Both the position numbers and the translations under genes were made by a program. The notes under the pieces were generated by a model that was not told the origin of the DNA, made no database searches, and was given only the letters and a program-made list of their open reading frames with translations. This document shows, in pieces, positions 20,506 through 38,947 of a stretch of 64,000 bases of DNA. This DNA is from Propionibacteriaceae bacterium (GTDB taxonomy: Bacteria > Actinomycetota > Actinomycetes > Propionibacteriales > Propionibacteriaceae). The stretch is from positions 1 to 64,000 of the forward strand of contig JAOPXN010000096.1 in the NCBI GenBank assembly GCA_025965155.1, read 5' to 3'. Numbering within the stretch: the stretch's first letter is position 1; each line of letters opens with the position of its first letter.

Positions 20506-20808
20506 TCAGGCCGCTTCGAGCTCGACGTCGATCTCGGCCACGTTGCCGCGGGTGGCGACGACGCGACGGTCTGTCTGGGCTCCCGGCGCGAGGGTCCGCA
20601 GGGTCCACGCGCCGTCCCCGGCGAAGAACCGGAAGTGACCGGTCGCTGAGGTCGGGACCTCAGCGGTGAACTCGCCACCTGAGTCGAGCAGTCGGACGTA
20701 GGCACCCGCGACCGGTGTGCCGCCTCGCAGTACCCGACCCTGGATCACTGCCTCCTTGGTGACATCGATGCCCGCCACGCTGAGACCGCCCTTAGTTGCT
20801 CCGCACAT
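20506..20808 (-). CDS. DUF1416 (SseC-like) protein
   Basis: 100 aa actinobacterial protein always found beside a thiosulfate sulfurtransferase (sseC in mycobacteria). It starts MCGATKGGLSVAGIDV, with the single Cys at residue 2 and the conserved GGTPVAGAYVRLLDSGGEF, then FRFFAGDGAWTLRTLAPGA; the pattern suggests a beta-sandwich like a carboxypeptidase regulatory domain. The invariant N-terminal Cys suggests sulfur handling, but the function is unknown. AGGAGAATCACC precedes the ATG. It is 32 bases downstream of the sulfurtransferase gene. Confidence 0.88.
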   Translation of the reverse strand: MCGATKGGLSVAGIDVTKEAVIQGRVLRGGTPVAGAYVRLLDSGGEFTAEVPTSATGHFRFFAGDGAWTLRTLAPGAQTDRRVVATRGNVAEIDVELEAA

Positions 20809-20840
20809 GGTGATTCTCCTTAGCTCAAGAGTCTGGAAGT

Positions 20841-21689
20841 TCAGAGGGTTCCGGGCTCGTCGCCCACAGCCACGGGAACGCCGACGAGGGAGCCGTACTC
20901 GGTCCACGAGCCGTCGTAGTTCTTGACATTCTTCTGGCCGAGCAACTCCTGCAGCACGAACCAGCTGTGTGCGCTGCGCTCACCGATCCGGCAGTACGCG
21001 ATGATGTCGCCGTCCCAGTCCACGCCAGCCTCGCTGTAGATCTGCTTCAGCTCGTCGTCGGACTTGAAGGTGCCGTCGTCGTTGGCCGCCTTGCTCCACG
21101 GGACGTTCACCGCGGTGGGAATGTGACCGCCGCGCTGCGACTGCTCCTGCGGCAGGTGGGCCGGAGCAAGCAGCCGGCCGGCGAACTCGTCAGGGCTACG
21201 GACGTCCACCAGGCTCTTCTTGCCGATGGCCTCGACAACCTCGTCCCGGAAAGCCCGGATCTGAAGGTTCTGCTCGGACGCGGTGTAGCTGGTGGCCGGG
21301 CGGGTCACCGTCTCGGCGCTCAGCTCGCGGGCCTCGAGCTCCCACTTCTTACGGCCGCCGTTGAGCAGCCGGACGTCGTTGTGACCGTAGAGCTTGAAGT
21401 ACCAGTAGGCGTAGGCCGCGAACCAGTTGTTGTTTCCGCCGTACAGAACGACGGTGTCGTCGTTGCTGACACCCTTCTCAGACAGCAGCTTCTCGAACTG
21501 CTCCTTGTTGACGAAGTCGCGGCGGACCGGATCCTGCAGGTCGGTCCTCCAGTCCAGCTTGATGGCTCCGGCGATGTGGCCACCGTCGTAGGCAGTGGTG
21601 TCCTCATCGACCTCGATCAGAACGATGTTGTCGTCGGTTGCGTGCTCGGCCACCCAGTCGGCGTCGACGAGTACTTCTTGCCTGCTCAT
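20841..21689 (-). CDS. Thiosulfate sulfurtransferase (tandem rhodanese, CysA2/SseA type)
   Basis: 282 aa with two rhodanese domains; only the second is active, with the catalytic Cys in the loop IAYCRIGERSAH (about residues 233-244). It moves sulfane sulfur from thiosulfate to cyanide or thiols. It is cytoplasmic. The start follows CAGGAGACAACAAATC. The gene sits behind a cysteine-containing leader peptide and a hairpin, and before sseC, so expression is probably tied to cysteine supply. Confidence 0.93.
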   Translation of the reverse strand: MSRQEVLVDADWVAEHATDDNIVLIEVDEDTTAYDGGHIAGAIKLDWRTDLQDPVRRDFVNKEQFEKLLSEKGVSNDDTVVLYGGNNNWFAAYAYWYFKLYGHNDVRLLNGGRKKWELEARELSAETVTRPATSYTASEQNLQIRAFRDEVVEAIGKKSLVDVRSPDEFAGRLLAPAHLPQEQSQRGGHIPTAVNVPWSKAANDDGTFKSDDELKQIYSEAGVDWDGDIIAYCRIGERSAHSWFVLQELLGQKNVKNYDGSWTEYGSLVGVPVAVGDEPGTL

Positions 21690-21824: not shown

Positions 21825-21932
21825 CTACAGCATTCGAGTCGGCAACAGGCGACACAGCGACGAGCGCATCCGGCCAAGGTCGACGGCCAGGCGGCGGGTG
21901 AGCGGCTTCGCCCACGAGTTCGTCGCGGTCAC
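21825..21932 (-). CDS. Cysteine-responsive leader peptide (35 aa) of the cysA2-sseC operon
   Basis: Not a catalytic protein: a short upstream ORF whose translation probably senses cysteine. It starts at a GTG placed 6 nt after a TACGCT -10 box, so it should be leaderless. The C-terminal part reads RRLAVDLGRMRSSLCRLL, matching the VDL-x-R-x2-S-x2-C core of the second leader in this window (37920-38006) and, from memory, the HVDLxRxxSAxC leader peptides upstream of actinobacterial sulfur genes. Slow decoding of the Cys codon, or an early stop, would alter ribosome position relative to the downstream hairpin. It is too short for automated callers. Confidence 0.75.
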   Translation of the reverse strand: MTATNSWAKPLTRRLAVDLGRMRSSLCRLLPTRML

Positions 21933-32388: not shown

Positions 32389-32394
32389 GCTGTG

Positions 32395-33480
32395 GTGAGC
32401 GCTAACGCGGGGTGGTATCCCGATCCGGGCGGCAGCCCCGGCCTGTTCCGCTACTGGGACGGCAGAGCGTGGTCTGCCGCCGTCTCGCCGAACCCCAACG
32501 GCGCGCTTCCGCCACAGAGCCTGACCGGCACGACAGCGTCTCACCCGGCGCTCGGCGGTAGCCAGCACTACGGTGCCGGCCAGCTGGGGCCGTCCGGCCA
32601 CGGCCACCATGGCTACCCAGGTCAGCAGGGCTCCGCGGGTCAGCCGGGCTCCCCGGGGCAGCAGGACTCCGCGGGCCAGCGCAGTCATCCCGGCCAGCGG
32701 GAGTATCTGGGTCAGCACACCCCTGGGCAGCCGTACGGCCAGGGCAACCCGAACGCCTACGCCGACTACCGGCAGGCGGCCAAGGAACGCACCCCGCTGG
32801 GCTGGTGGATCGGTGCTGCGGCCGTGGTCGTGGTGGCCATCATCGTCGCCGTGATCGCCATCCGGGCCACCACCGGCGGCGGGGTCATCGGCTCCAATCC
32901 TGGCCGCGGCCAGGCCACCCAGGACGTCTGTCCGCAGCCCAAGTTCGAGTCCGAGTCACCGATCCCGCACCCCAACGACGGACGAGTCCACGGCGGCCCG
33001 GTGTCGTACCCCGAGCTGGGCGACCCATGGGGACCGCCGACCGGGGACAACCGGGTTCCGTTCGGCCGGGATGTGCTGAGCCAGCTCGTCACCGTGGAAA
33101 GCAACTACCGGCCGGGCAACAACTGGGTGGCGTCGGTGCTGGTTGGCGAGCTGCAGGCCGGTGACGGCTTCTACACCCCGGAGCAAGGCTCTCAGATCGT
33201 CGTCAAGTGCATCCTCGGCGCCTTCTACGGTGAGAACGAGGTGAACAGCAATGTGACCGTCAACCGGGCGGCCACGATCGACGGCCACGACGCCTGGCTG
33301 GTCGAGTCGCAGCTGAGCTTCGACATCACAGGCCTGGAGACCAAGGGCGAGCTGCTGATCGTCGCGGTCGTGGCCACCGGTTCCACCGCTGGCCTGTTCT
33401 ATGCCTCAATCCCCGACACGACCCCGCAGCTGGTGCAGCCGGCGCGGGATGCGCTGGCCAAGCTTCAGGTGGACGGCTAG
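32395..33480 (+). CDS. DUF2510 membrane protein with Gly/Gln-rich linker
   Basis: 361 aa. The N-terminal DUF2510 module GWYPDPGGSPGLFRYWDGRA (about residues 6-25) is common in actinobacterial membrane proteins. A low-complexity PGQQGS/PGSPGQQ linker of about 60 residues follows, then one transmembrane segment (GAAAVVVVAIIVAVIAI) and an extracellular domain of about 200 residues (FVSYPELGDP-like region, GNNWVASVLVGELQ, IVVKCILGAFYGENEV). Function unknown; the extracellular domain resembles other lipoprotein or sensor domains of unknown role. Confidence 0.8.
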   Translation: MSANAGWYPDPGGSPGLFRYWDGRAWSAAVSPNPNGALPPQSLTGTTASHPALGGSQHYGAGQLGPSGHGHHGYPGQQGSAGQPGSPGQQDSAGQRSHPGQREYLGQHTPGQPYGQGNPNAYADYRQAAKERTPLGWWIGAAAVVVVAIIVAVIAIRATTGGGVIGSNPGRGQATQDVCPQPKFESESPIPHPNDGRVHGGPVSYPELGDPWGPPTGDNRVPFGRDVLSQLVTVESNYRPGNNWVASVLVGELQAGDGFYTPEQGSQIVVKCILGAFYGENEVNSNVTVNRAATIDGHDAWLVESQLSFDITGLETKGELLIVAVVATGSTAGLFYASIPDTTPQLVQPARDALAKLQVDG

Positions 33481-37789: not shown

Positions 37790-37824
37790 GAGATTGACAC
37801 CTCCGCCATTAACCCGTTATTTCC

Positions 37825-37830
37825 TATAGT
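37825..37830 (+). promoter_or_regulatory. -10 box of the leader-cysteine dioxygenase operon
   Basis: TATAGT, the best -10 match in the area, predicts a start near 37837 and a leader of about 80 nt before the leader peptide ATG. Confidence 0.5.
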
Positions 37831-37919
37831 GAGACAGGGGATTGTCCGCGGTGCGCACCCGAACTACGGTGGGGGCACCTGACCGACACGGCCGTGCGCC
37901 GTCCACACCAGGAAGTGAC

Positions 37920-38006
37920 ATGGCCCGCACCTTCCACTCTCGGATTCACGTCGATCTTCATCGGACGGCGAGCGCGACCTGTCTGCGAATGCCTCCGCTT
38001 CGCTGA
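37920..38006 (+). CDS. Cysteine-containing leader peptide (28 aa) of the cysteine dioxygenase operon
   Basis: A short ORF with CAGGAAGTGAC ribosome binding site, starting MARTFHS and containing RIHVDLHRTASATCLR. The core VDL-x-R-x2-S-x2-C is the same as in the leader upstream of the sulfurtransferase gene (21825-21932), and Cys is again the only cysteine. It ends 60 bases before the dioxygenase ATG with a hairpin between. A translational sensor of Cys-tRNA is the likely role; the recalled actinobacterial leader peptide consensus HVDLxRxxSAxC fits exactly. Confidence 0.8.
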   Translation: MARTFHSRIHVDLHRTASATCLRMPPLR

Positions 38007-38019
38007 CCGTGCCGCCCCC

Positions 38020-38035
38020 GCCCGCACCTGCGGGC
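38020..38035 (+). promoter_or_regulatory. Hairpin between leader peptide and cysteine dioxygenase
   Basis: GCCCGCACCTGCGGGC can form a 6-bp stem around ACCT, 14 bases after the leader stop codon. A paused or released ribosome on the leader would alter its folding. Confidence 0.45.
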
Positions 38036-38066
38036 ATCACCAATCCGTCGAGAAACAGGAAGTCCC

Positions 38067-38549
38067 ATGTCCAGAAAACTTCGCGCCCAGATCAACCTTG
38101 TCCAGATCGCCACCCAGCTCGCCGCCCAGCAGGTTCTGTGGGAACCGCTGATCGCCTACGATCCCGTCTCCCGCTACTACGCACGGCTCGCCGCCGAACC
38201 GCAGTTCGAGGCTTGGCTGCTCACCTGGGTGCCCGGGCAGGGCACCGACTGGCACGACCACGGTGGTAGCGCGGGCGCGTTCATCACCCTGCGTGGCACG
38301 CTGACGGAGCAGCATGCCCGGGTCGACCGGGATGCGGCGCCGGTGATCGAACCGCAGGCCCGAGAGCTGGTCACCGGGTCGCTGCGCGCGTTCGGCACCA
38401 AGCATCTGCACAAGGTGACCAACAACGGGCTCGAGCCTGCAGTCAGCCTGCACGTCTACTCCCCCGCCCTGGTGGAGATGAACAGGTACGAGCCACGCGG
38501 GGCCCGCCTCGAGCGGGTCGAGTCCCAGCTGGTGGGGGTGAACTGGTGA
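38067..38549 (+). CDS. Cysteine dioxygenase family protein
   Basis: 160 aa cupin that oxidises cysteine (or another thiol) to the sulfinate. The metal-binding His residues are in TDWHDHGGSAGAFITLRG (about residues 60-77) and SLHVYSPAL (about residue 133). No Cys equivalent to the mammalian Cys-Tyr crosslink is seen, as usual for bacterial enzymes. It is followed with a 4-base GTGA overlap by a rhodanese. The leader peptide upstream suggests the operon responds to cysteine level, consistent with a role in removing excess cysteine. Confidence 0.9.
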   Translation: MSRKLRAQINLVQIATQLAAQQVLWEPLIAYDPVSRYYARLAAEPQFEAWLLTWVPGQGTDWHDHGGSAGAFITLRGTLTEQHARVDRDAAPVIEPQARELVTGSLRAFGTKHLHKVTNNGLEPAVSLHVYSPALVEMNRYEPRGARLERVESQLVGVNW

Positions 38550-38947
38550 CCGCCGCTGCGACAGCCGGGGCCCGGACGGGCCTACGTACGATCGACCAGG
38601 TGCTCGAGCAGGCCCGGAGTGGGCTGTCCCGGCTGACTCCGGCGCAGGCCGCCGACGCCTGGCGAGCAGGTGCGGTGGTGGTGGACATCCGTCCCGCGGC
38701 CCAGCGAGCGGCCGAAGGCGAGCTTCCCGGGGCCCTGGTGGTGGAACGGAACGTGCTGGAGTGGCGGTTCGACCCGGCCAGCGATGCACGGCTGCCGATA
38801 GCCGGCTATGACCTGCAGGTGATCGTGCTGTGCCAGGAGGGCTACACGTCCTCGCTGGCGGCCGCTGCCCTGCAGGAGCTCGGGCTGGGGCGGGCCACCG
38901 ACGTGATCGGCGGCTGGGCGGCCTGGCGGGAGCTACCGACCGCCTAG
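38546..38947 (+). CDS. Single-domain rhodanese-like protein
   Basis: 133 aa rhodanese with [20 protein letters not shown] and the catalytic Cys in IVLCQEGYTSSLAAAAL (about residues 90-106), ending with the typical IGGWAAWRELP. The loop CQEGYTS matches rhodaneses paired with cysteine dioxygenases. It is translationally coupled to the dioxygenase gene. Probable role: handling sulfane sulfur arising in cysteine breakdown. Confidence 0.9.
   Translation: MTAAATAGARTGLRTIDQVLEQARSGLSRLTPAQAADAWRAGAVVVDIRPAAQRAAEGELPGALVVERNVLEWRFDPASDARLPIAGYDLQVIVLCQEGYTSSLAAAALQELGLGRATDVIGGWAAWRELPTA

Follow-up and report, generated by a model that had tools for sequence, protein, structure and literature searches.

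A probable single-cysteine leader peptide before a cysteine dioxygenase–rhodanese operon in Propionibacteriaceae: a possible cysteine sensor in the response to sulfur limitation

Why should a gene annotated as cysteine-degrading be preceded by a short ORF that itself contains a single cysteine codon? The question is raised by a locus of a soil actinobacterium in the window (the whole stretch of DNA analysed here, 64,000 nucleotides of contig JAOPXN010000096.1), for which a preliminary description had proposed a cysteine leader peptide before a cysteine dioxygenase (CDO)–rhodanese operon. The 28-codon ORF with its ribosome-binding site and one Cys, the hairpin and the CDO gene behind it were all found as described (Table 1). 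The peptide matched the NCBIfam family NF042934 ("putative leader peptide", cis_reg_atten) above the curated cut-off, aligning over positions 2–19 of the 19 in the profile; in a genome-wide search it was the sole match over cut-off (29.6 bits, E = 4.4e-6), and none was obtained in 14 control genomes. Its score against the polycysteine leader family NF042936 was 15.6, below the cut-off of 45, and it has one Cys and no Cys run. The window leader also has the setting of NF042934, a small reading frame that closely precedes a sulfur gene read in its own direction, and differs in its tie to CDO–rhodanese. Judged from these features, the ORF is very probably a leader peptide of a known regulatory kind.

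Table 1. Positions of the leader ORFs, neighbouring elements and downstream genes in the window
Feature	Position	Strand	Basis or remark
Promoter-like box, imperfect inverted repeat	37821-37843	+	TTCCTATAGTGAGACAGGGGATT; upstream of leader
Leader ribosome-binding site AGGAAG	37910-37915	+	Sequence; four bases 5' of leader ATG
Leader peptide ORF	37920-38006	+	28 aa, MARTFHSRIHVDLHRTASATCLRMPPLR, then stop; NF042934 31.2 bits, cut-off 27
Sole leader Cys codon, TGT (putative sensor codon)	37980-37982	+	Conserved at codon level
Short G+C hairpin GCCCGC-ACCT-GCGGGC in leader/CDO interval, without T run	38020-38035	+	Sequence
CDO ribosome-binding site AGGAAG	38057-38062	+	Sequence
Cysteine dioxygenase-like cupin (CDO, CDO_I), 160 aa	38067-38549	+	PF05995 81 bits, cut-off 23
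Rhodanese-like gene, start overlapping CDO stop	38546-38947	+	PF00581 41 bits
Second leader ORF, GTG start assumed	21825-21932	-	VTATNSWAKPLTRRLAVDLGRMRSSLCRLLPTRML, then stop; NF042934 15.2 bits, below cut-off 27
Rhodanese-type sulfurtransferase-like gene behind second leader	20841-21689	-	Named by eye

The window holds a second ORF of this appearance, and the layout VDL-x-R-x2-S-x2-C, which the preliminary description had reported for both, was indeed common to them; the Cys codon of the second ORF is likewise TGT (21852–21854, minus strand). To call the second ORF independent, as had been done, is too strong, since the shared layout suggests that both ORFs belong to one peptide family, despite a score for the second that falls below the family cut-off.

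The CDO genes closest to that of the window sit in Microlunatus and Friedmanniella records. Twenty genomes of the genus were sampled, 13 of them with a CDO match, giving 16 CDO loci in all (entries L018–L021 are repeats of loci also entered as L052, L053, L012 and L056). An HVDLxRxxSxxC-type ORF was present upstream of CDO at 13 of the 16 and was not seen there at L054, L056 and L058, so that the leader and its core motif are conserved at this site in relatives, the comparison that the preliminary description had suggested. All 11 over-cut-off NF042934 matches in the 20 genomes, one of which passes the cut-off only with its neighbours in frame, lay directly upstream of CDO, and such matches occurred in 11 of the 13 CDO-bearing genomes versus none of the seven without CDO (Fisher p 4.6e-4). 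At locus L014, in another genus of the family, the leader ORF also stands before CDO. The earlier assignment to a family of Cys leaders preceding actinobacterial sulfur genes is thus supported by the NF042934 match, by conservation in relatives and by the tie to CDO. At one locus from a metagenome-assembled genome near the window (L052, identical with L018), the leader frame, ~144 nt before the CDO start, continues into the CDO frame with no stop, which, unlike the window arrangement, is a leader–CDO fusion, either genuine or produced by misassembly.

Across the class, CDO_I was present in 195 of 394 sampled genomes; NF042934 was matched at E 0.001 in 199 of 296 genomes and over its cut-off in 177. 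The best 30 CDO_I loci all came from one genus, g52 (probably Streptomyces), and all 30 carried a leader, typically VRLWRRVHMDLVRYAGCVCRPSC, whereas among 60 further class CDO loci, drawn from among the matches listed, a leader was found at 8; four of these 60 lie in g52 genomes, belong to another CDO type and have no leader. The link between leader and CDO is therefore recurrent in the class yet far from universal. Leaders at CDO loci were scored with a matrix built from 29 NF042934 loci, for which 2 of 216 antisense or shuffled control sequences scored high (43 and 19); L115 and L047 were counted as leaders by eye despite low scores (-0.8 and 9.2), and L231 (a duplicate of L216) and L124, L137 and L149 (doubtful leader matches) were left out of the counts. 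At L096, one of these loci, a leader of the same family diverges from CDO on the opposite strand (G180:C5:168124-168180:-), so that a genuine leader may underlie a high control score. A rhodanese match followed CDO at all 22 leader-bearing loci outside g52 and at 28 of the 30 g52 loci; it also followed 44 of 56 leaderless CDO genes, and rhodanese was accordingly rejected as a hallmark of the loci with a leader. In the g52 leaders (L022–L051) the codons TGG CGG AGG GTC are nearly invariant (AGG in 29 of 30, the others in 30 of 30) and in 28 of 30 place a GGAGG inside the leader, six bases ahead of an ATG in the same frame; because of this spacing, translation of the g52 leaders may start at the internal in-frame Met.

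Members of the same family precede other genes as well. We assembled 58 deduplicated leaders of this sort from 20 families, with loci drawn from among the matches listed, keeping a single representative where leaders differed by no more than 3 nt over 39 nt, and picking the following ORF mechanically by the longest start within 400 nt of the leader. By Pfam, these ORFs included sulfite/nitrite reductase (10), rhodanese (7), DUF4395 (6), SBP_bac_5 (5), luciferase-like monooxygenase (4), PAPS reductase (3) and sulfatase (2), with single matches to TauD, APS kinase, ThiS and others (25 of 31 families listed); many of these targets serve sulfur acquisition.

The Cys codon of these leaders was almost without exception TGT. 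It was TGT in 52 of 52 CDO leaders (14 of 14 from the 13 genus loci and L014, 30 of 30 from g52 and 8 of 8 others) and in 57 of the 58 leaders before other genes (G 209; 108 of 109 before deduplication, made up of 107 of 108 plus L082, also TGT and read separately), codon p values being indicative, with family-level kinship reduced by deduplication alone. As background, Cys codons of the ORFs behind the leaders were TGT in 57 of 390 cases (15%) and those of window genes in 17 of 99, and the Cys that occurs in DLxR of the same peptides provided a within-gene control, being TGC in 24 of 24 deduplicated cases (64 of 67 raw). The base after the sensor TGT was a pyrimidine in 73 of 78 leaders; past that base nothing was strongly conserved (information below 0.5 bit), and leaders most often had three sense codons between TGT and the stop (44 of 108). 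Upstream of TGT, four residues of RxHVDLxR (D, L and both R) were invariant in all 58 deduplicated leaders with their synonymous codons mixed, the first R being near background (G 3.8) and D, L and the second R showing a mild codon bias (G 11–16), while the Ser codon was biased to AGY (36 of 42 versus 26% in the background; G 71). Conservation thus runs at the peptide level (R-x-H-V-D-L-x-R-x-x-S-x-x) up to a fixed codon, as in arrest peptides. Because residues are kept with mixed codons, UGU is fixed and little is conserved after it, the pattern fits a peptide acting in the ribosome tunnel together with one special codon. UGU is read by wobble by the usual tRNA-Cys with a GCA anticodon. A Cys leader of another kind, found before cysS in Rhodobacterales, is reported to have mostly UGC (PMC8632094).

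We analysed the RNA behind the leader next to these codon data. As no T run follows the hairpin in the leader/CDO interval, it does not qualify as an intrinsic terminator. A T5 run was found after none of 22 CDO leaders, and the 90 nt following TGT folded no better than shuffled sequences (z -0.1 for the window; mean -0.13 for the 22 CDO leaders); an intrinsic terminator at CDO leaders, as a classical trp-type attenuator would have, was therefore rejected. For the 58 leaders before other genes, the 90 nt after the codon folded slightly better than shuffles (mean z -0.83), with a T5 run in 3 of 58, and RNA structure may matter there. Long-range pairing between the leader start and the CDO start, seen in a fold of the window, was also discarded: its z was -1.5, 16 of 200 shuffles folded at least as well, it owes much to CAUG palindromes at both start codons, and L052 and L053 gave it no clear support by eye. 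The C-rich, G-poor skew that a Rho site would give before CDO was hardly stronger at leader loci (mean 0.21, n=50) than at leaderless loci (mean 0.18, n=43) and does not discriminate between them; Rho-dependent termination and translational control of CDO are both candidates for the step behind a pause.

These results bear on two explanations in which the ribosome does not gauge cysteine. The short peptide might work in trans as a small protein with a function of its own, or UGU might be fixed by an RNA-level element overlapping the ORF; the conservation of so short a peptide is in keeping with the former, and the AGY bias at Ser points to a nucleotide-level constraint beyond the Cys codon. 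Since, however, the R, D and L codons are mixed with a mild bias at most, little is conserved after UGU and CDO leaders show no excess folding there, we regard either version as highly improbable. Alternatively, the leader may mainly aid expression through translation coupling or reinitiation, keeping the translated RNA open and bringing ribosomes to CDO, without any sensing of cysteine. Its good ribosome-binding site and the short gap of 60 nt between the leader stop and the CDO ATG would suit such a role, and translation of the ppe2 uORF in Mycobacterium tuberculosis is reported to be essential for PPE2 expression, in a paper that also names termination–reinitiation (PMC11260477). Coupling of this kind nevertheless leaves the invariant Cys, the UGU codon and the conserved preceding residues unexplained, and appears rather unlikely to be the leader's main function.

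Upstream of the leader, a SAM-IV aptamer was found at six of the 13 genus loci that carry the leader (L011, L015, L016, L055, L059 and L060), scoring 72–103 bits against a cut-off of 38. A gap of 11–19 nt, which holds the leader's ribosome-binding site, separates its 3' end from the leader start codon; from this abutting position, it is the translation of the leader, and not directly that of CDO, that would be placed under the riboswitch. SAM riboswitches are generally OFF switches. The window gave no Rfam match and its genome no SAM-IV, and riboswitch matches were absent from the 60 other CDO loci and from the 20 of the 30 g52 loci that were scanned. L017, in yet another genus, has a SAM riboswitch upstream of CDO (45.8 bits against a cut-off of 44.4). 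Behind this riboswitch, in the region ~110–180 nt before the CDO match, stands a short ORF unlike the leader, MIIDPFGRLVRRFRRGWCCRL, with two Cys codons that were read by eye as TGT TGT.

The PDB relatives of the window CDO comprise 8qfr and 8qfl, which are the best matches, and mammalian-type CDO chains. The cysteine-type residues HDH, HLH, Tyr and Arg (YYARL) are present at the aligned columns; we take HDH and HLH to supply the three metal-binding His, the Tyr to be the active-site residue and the Arg to bind the carboxylate in cysteine-type enzymes. Although their PDB record says cysteine dioxygenase, 8qfr and 8qfl are presumably ergothioneine enzymes, and an ergothioneine dioxygenase was set aside as the identity of the window enzyme, which has Arg where 8qfr and 8qfl have Ser. 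Six loci with the 8qfr-like motif HDHD(I/V)S had no leader. Among leader-bearing CDOs the Arg position was occupied by Arg in 45 of 52, with Gln in three, His in two and Leu or Glu in the others; because seven of 52 thus have a non-Arg residue, a substrate thiol other than cysteine is conceivable.

E. coli TnaC combines a conserved nascent chain with Rho-based attenuation, and it is tryptophan-induced and catabolic. It offers a model here for the conserved nascent chain and for Rho, with a sign that is likely to be the opposite. The TnaC sign would require that free cysteine or a product arrests the peptide at or near UGU, so that the operon is expressed in cysteine excess. Conservation up to one codon with little after it does resemble an arrest peptide, the target is annotated as catabolic, and the window protein keeps the cysteine-type Arg. 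Against this sign stand the occurrence of the same family ahead of genes for sulfite and PAPS reductases, for sulfatases and for TauD, the SAM-IV tandem at genus loci, the sulfur-poor proteins of the operon, and a Gordonia strain in which cysteine dioxygenase, four sulfurtransferases and others were reported to be more highly expressed on sulfonates than on sulfate as the sole sulfur source (PMC7661421). Expression in cysteine excess is, on this evidence, unlikely. Nor do the same four observations support the preliminary view of the operon as a cysteine-degrading target apart from the assimilation genes; because of them the CDO–rhodanese operon appears to belong to the response to sulfur limitation and not to cysteine overflow.

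The composition argument merits its figures. Among 47 window genes picked by eye, with an overall Cys+Met share of 2.5%, the sulfurtransferase-like gene behind the second leader ranked lowest (0.36%), CDO third (0.63%) and rhodanese fifth (0.76%), and the second gene of the other operon (20506–20907) was average (rank 23). By a binomial test, CDO (p 0.09) and rhodanese (p 0.15) were singly not significant and gave p 0.02 when pooled, so the signal is modest. Over the aligned core, leader-bearing CDOs contained 0.15% (g52) and 0.65% (others) Cys+Met versus 1.04% in leaderless ones (p 2e-10 and 0.013 respectively, ignoring kinship among CDOs), and the six 8qfr-like loci contained 2.2%; leaderless CDOs are likewise fairly sulfur-poor, with a mean of 1.0% and a median of 0.7%. 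Another very Cys/Met-poor protein is encoded in the window at 32392–33480, with 361 aa, two Cys and no Met after the start.

Taken together, we favour on balance an action of the leader in cis, in which the ribosome would gauge cysteine just upstream of CDO–rhodanese and the operon would be expressed in sulfur limitation; the stall itself, the direction of the response and the step behind it belong to our inference. UGU, read by wobble and in a weak 3' context, would serve as a deliberately slow codon, at which the ribosome would pause when Cys-tRNA is short, perhaps aided by the conserved nascent chain. By pausing a few codons short of the stop, the ribosome could shield the RNA behind it from early (Rho-dependent) transcription termination, or open the CDO start for translation, and CDO and rhodanese would be made; with ample cysteine the ribosome would pass, end and leave, and expression would fall. 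The operon would then work in sulfur limitation by freeing sulfite from thiols for re-assimilation. Several points count against this reading. The Rho-like skew is hardly stronger where a leader is present, the leader is missing at three of the 16 genus CDO loci and occurs at only 8 of the 60 further class loci, and the composition signal is modest. To degrade scarce cysteine would be hard to understand if the enzyme did not act on a different thiol, and the window CDO keeps the Arg of cysteine-type enzymes, although seven of 52 leader-bearing CDOs do not. Sensitivity to starvation could also be low, as the leader has one Cys codon only, unlike polycysteine leaders.

More tentatively, and with a probability that we place clearly lower, HVDLxRxxSxxC leaders could be programmed-arrest sensors throughout the class in Actinomycetes, gated by SAM-IV in the Microlunatus relatives and set before a thiol-scavenging CDO. 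The nascent chain, one slow UGU and the pyrimidine would then measure cysteine, so that a single Cys codon suffices, SAM-IV and leader would form a two-input sulfur gate, and CDO would scavenge thiol sulfur and not dispose of cysteine. If true, cysteine would be sensed by one Cys codon through codon choice and nascent chain instead of a Cys run; a gene annotated as cysteine-degrading would join the sulfur-limitation response, changing the presumed role of that enzyme in actinobacteria; and SAM-IV with the leader would be a natural two-signal sulfur gate.

Several known systems are close to this one. The mycobacterial polycysteine leaders of the Ms4527A type (NF042936) show in the members analysed here an RRAVDLCR core, the same core as here; they are polycysteine and leaderless, whereas the window leader has one Cys, a ribosome-binding site and CDO as its target. 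Canestrari et al. 2020 describe leaderless, cysteine-responsive attenuators in their title (cited in PMC9094748 and PMC13236596), and a 2026 paper describes the Cys leaders of M. smegmatis as translation attenuation (PMC13236596). Seliverstov 2005 predicted Cys leaders before cys operons in Mycobacterium and Propionibacterium acnes and before cbs in Bifidobacterium longum, found no terminator and suggested Rho (PMC1262725); these are likewise short Cys ORFs before sulfur genes, but with Cys runs and biosynthetic targets, CDO being unnamed in the parts of that paper drawn on here. For M. tuberculosis, uORFs linked to riboswitches have been described, B12/ppe2 (PMC11260477) and Mbox/pe20 (PMC12810186, with Rho involved), where the riboswitch acts with or on a small upstream ORF, as it may in the Microlunatus relatives; in the latter, unlike the M. 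tuberculosis cases, SAM-IV abuts a Cys leader, so that two sulfur signals would meet. The titles and abstract openings surveyed contained none on a CDO leader, an invariant UGU or SAM-IV combined with a Cys leader. The constraint on UGU at the codon level was found here, and the authors of the family may have noted it; Canestrari 2020 may hold the codon point.

Finally, the window and its near relatives carry a promoter-like box instead of SAM-IV. As a regulon motif the box was rejected, its pattern having a single site in the genome at up to 3 mismatches. Its TATAGT resembles a -10 element, from which we infer a promoter role, and an operator is possible. Inspection by eye of the aligned loci L052, L053, L012, L013 and L057 showed a similar box.
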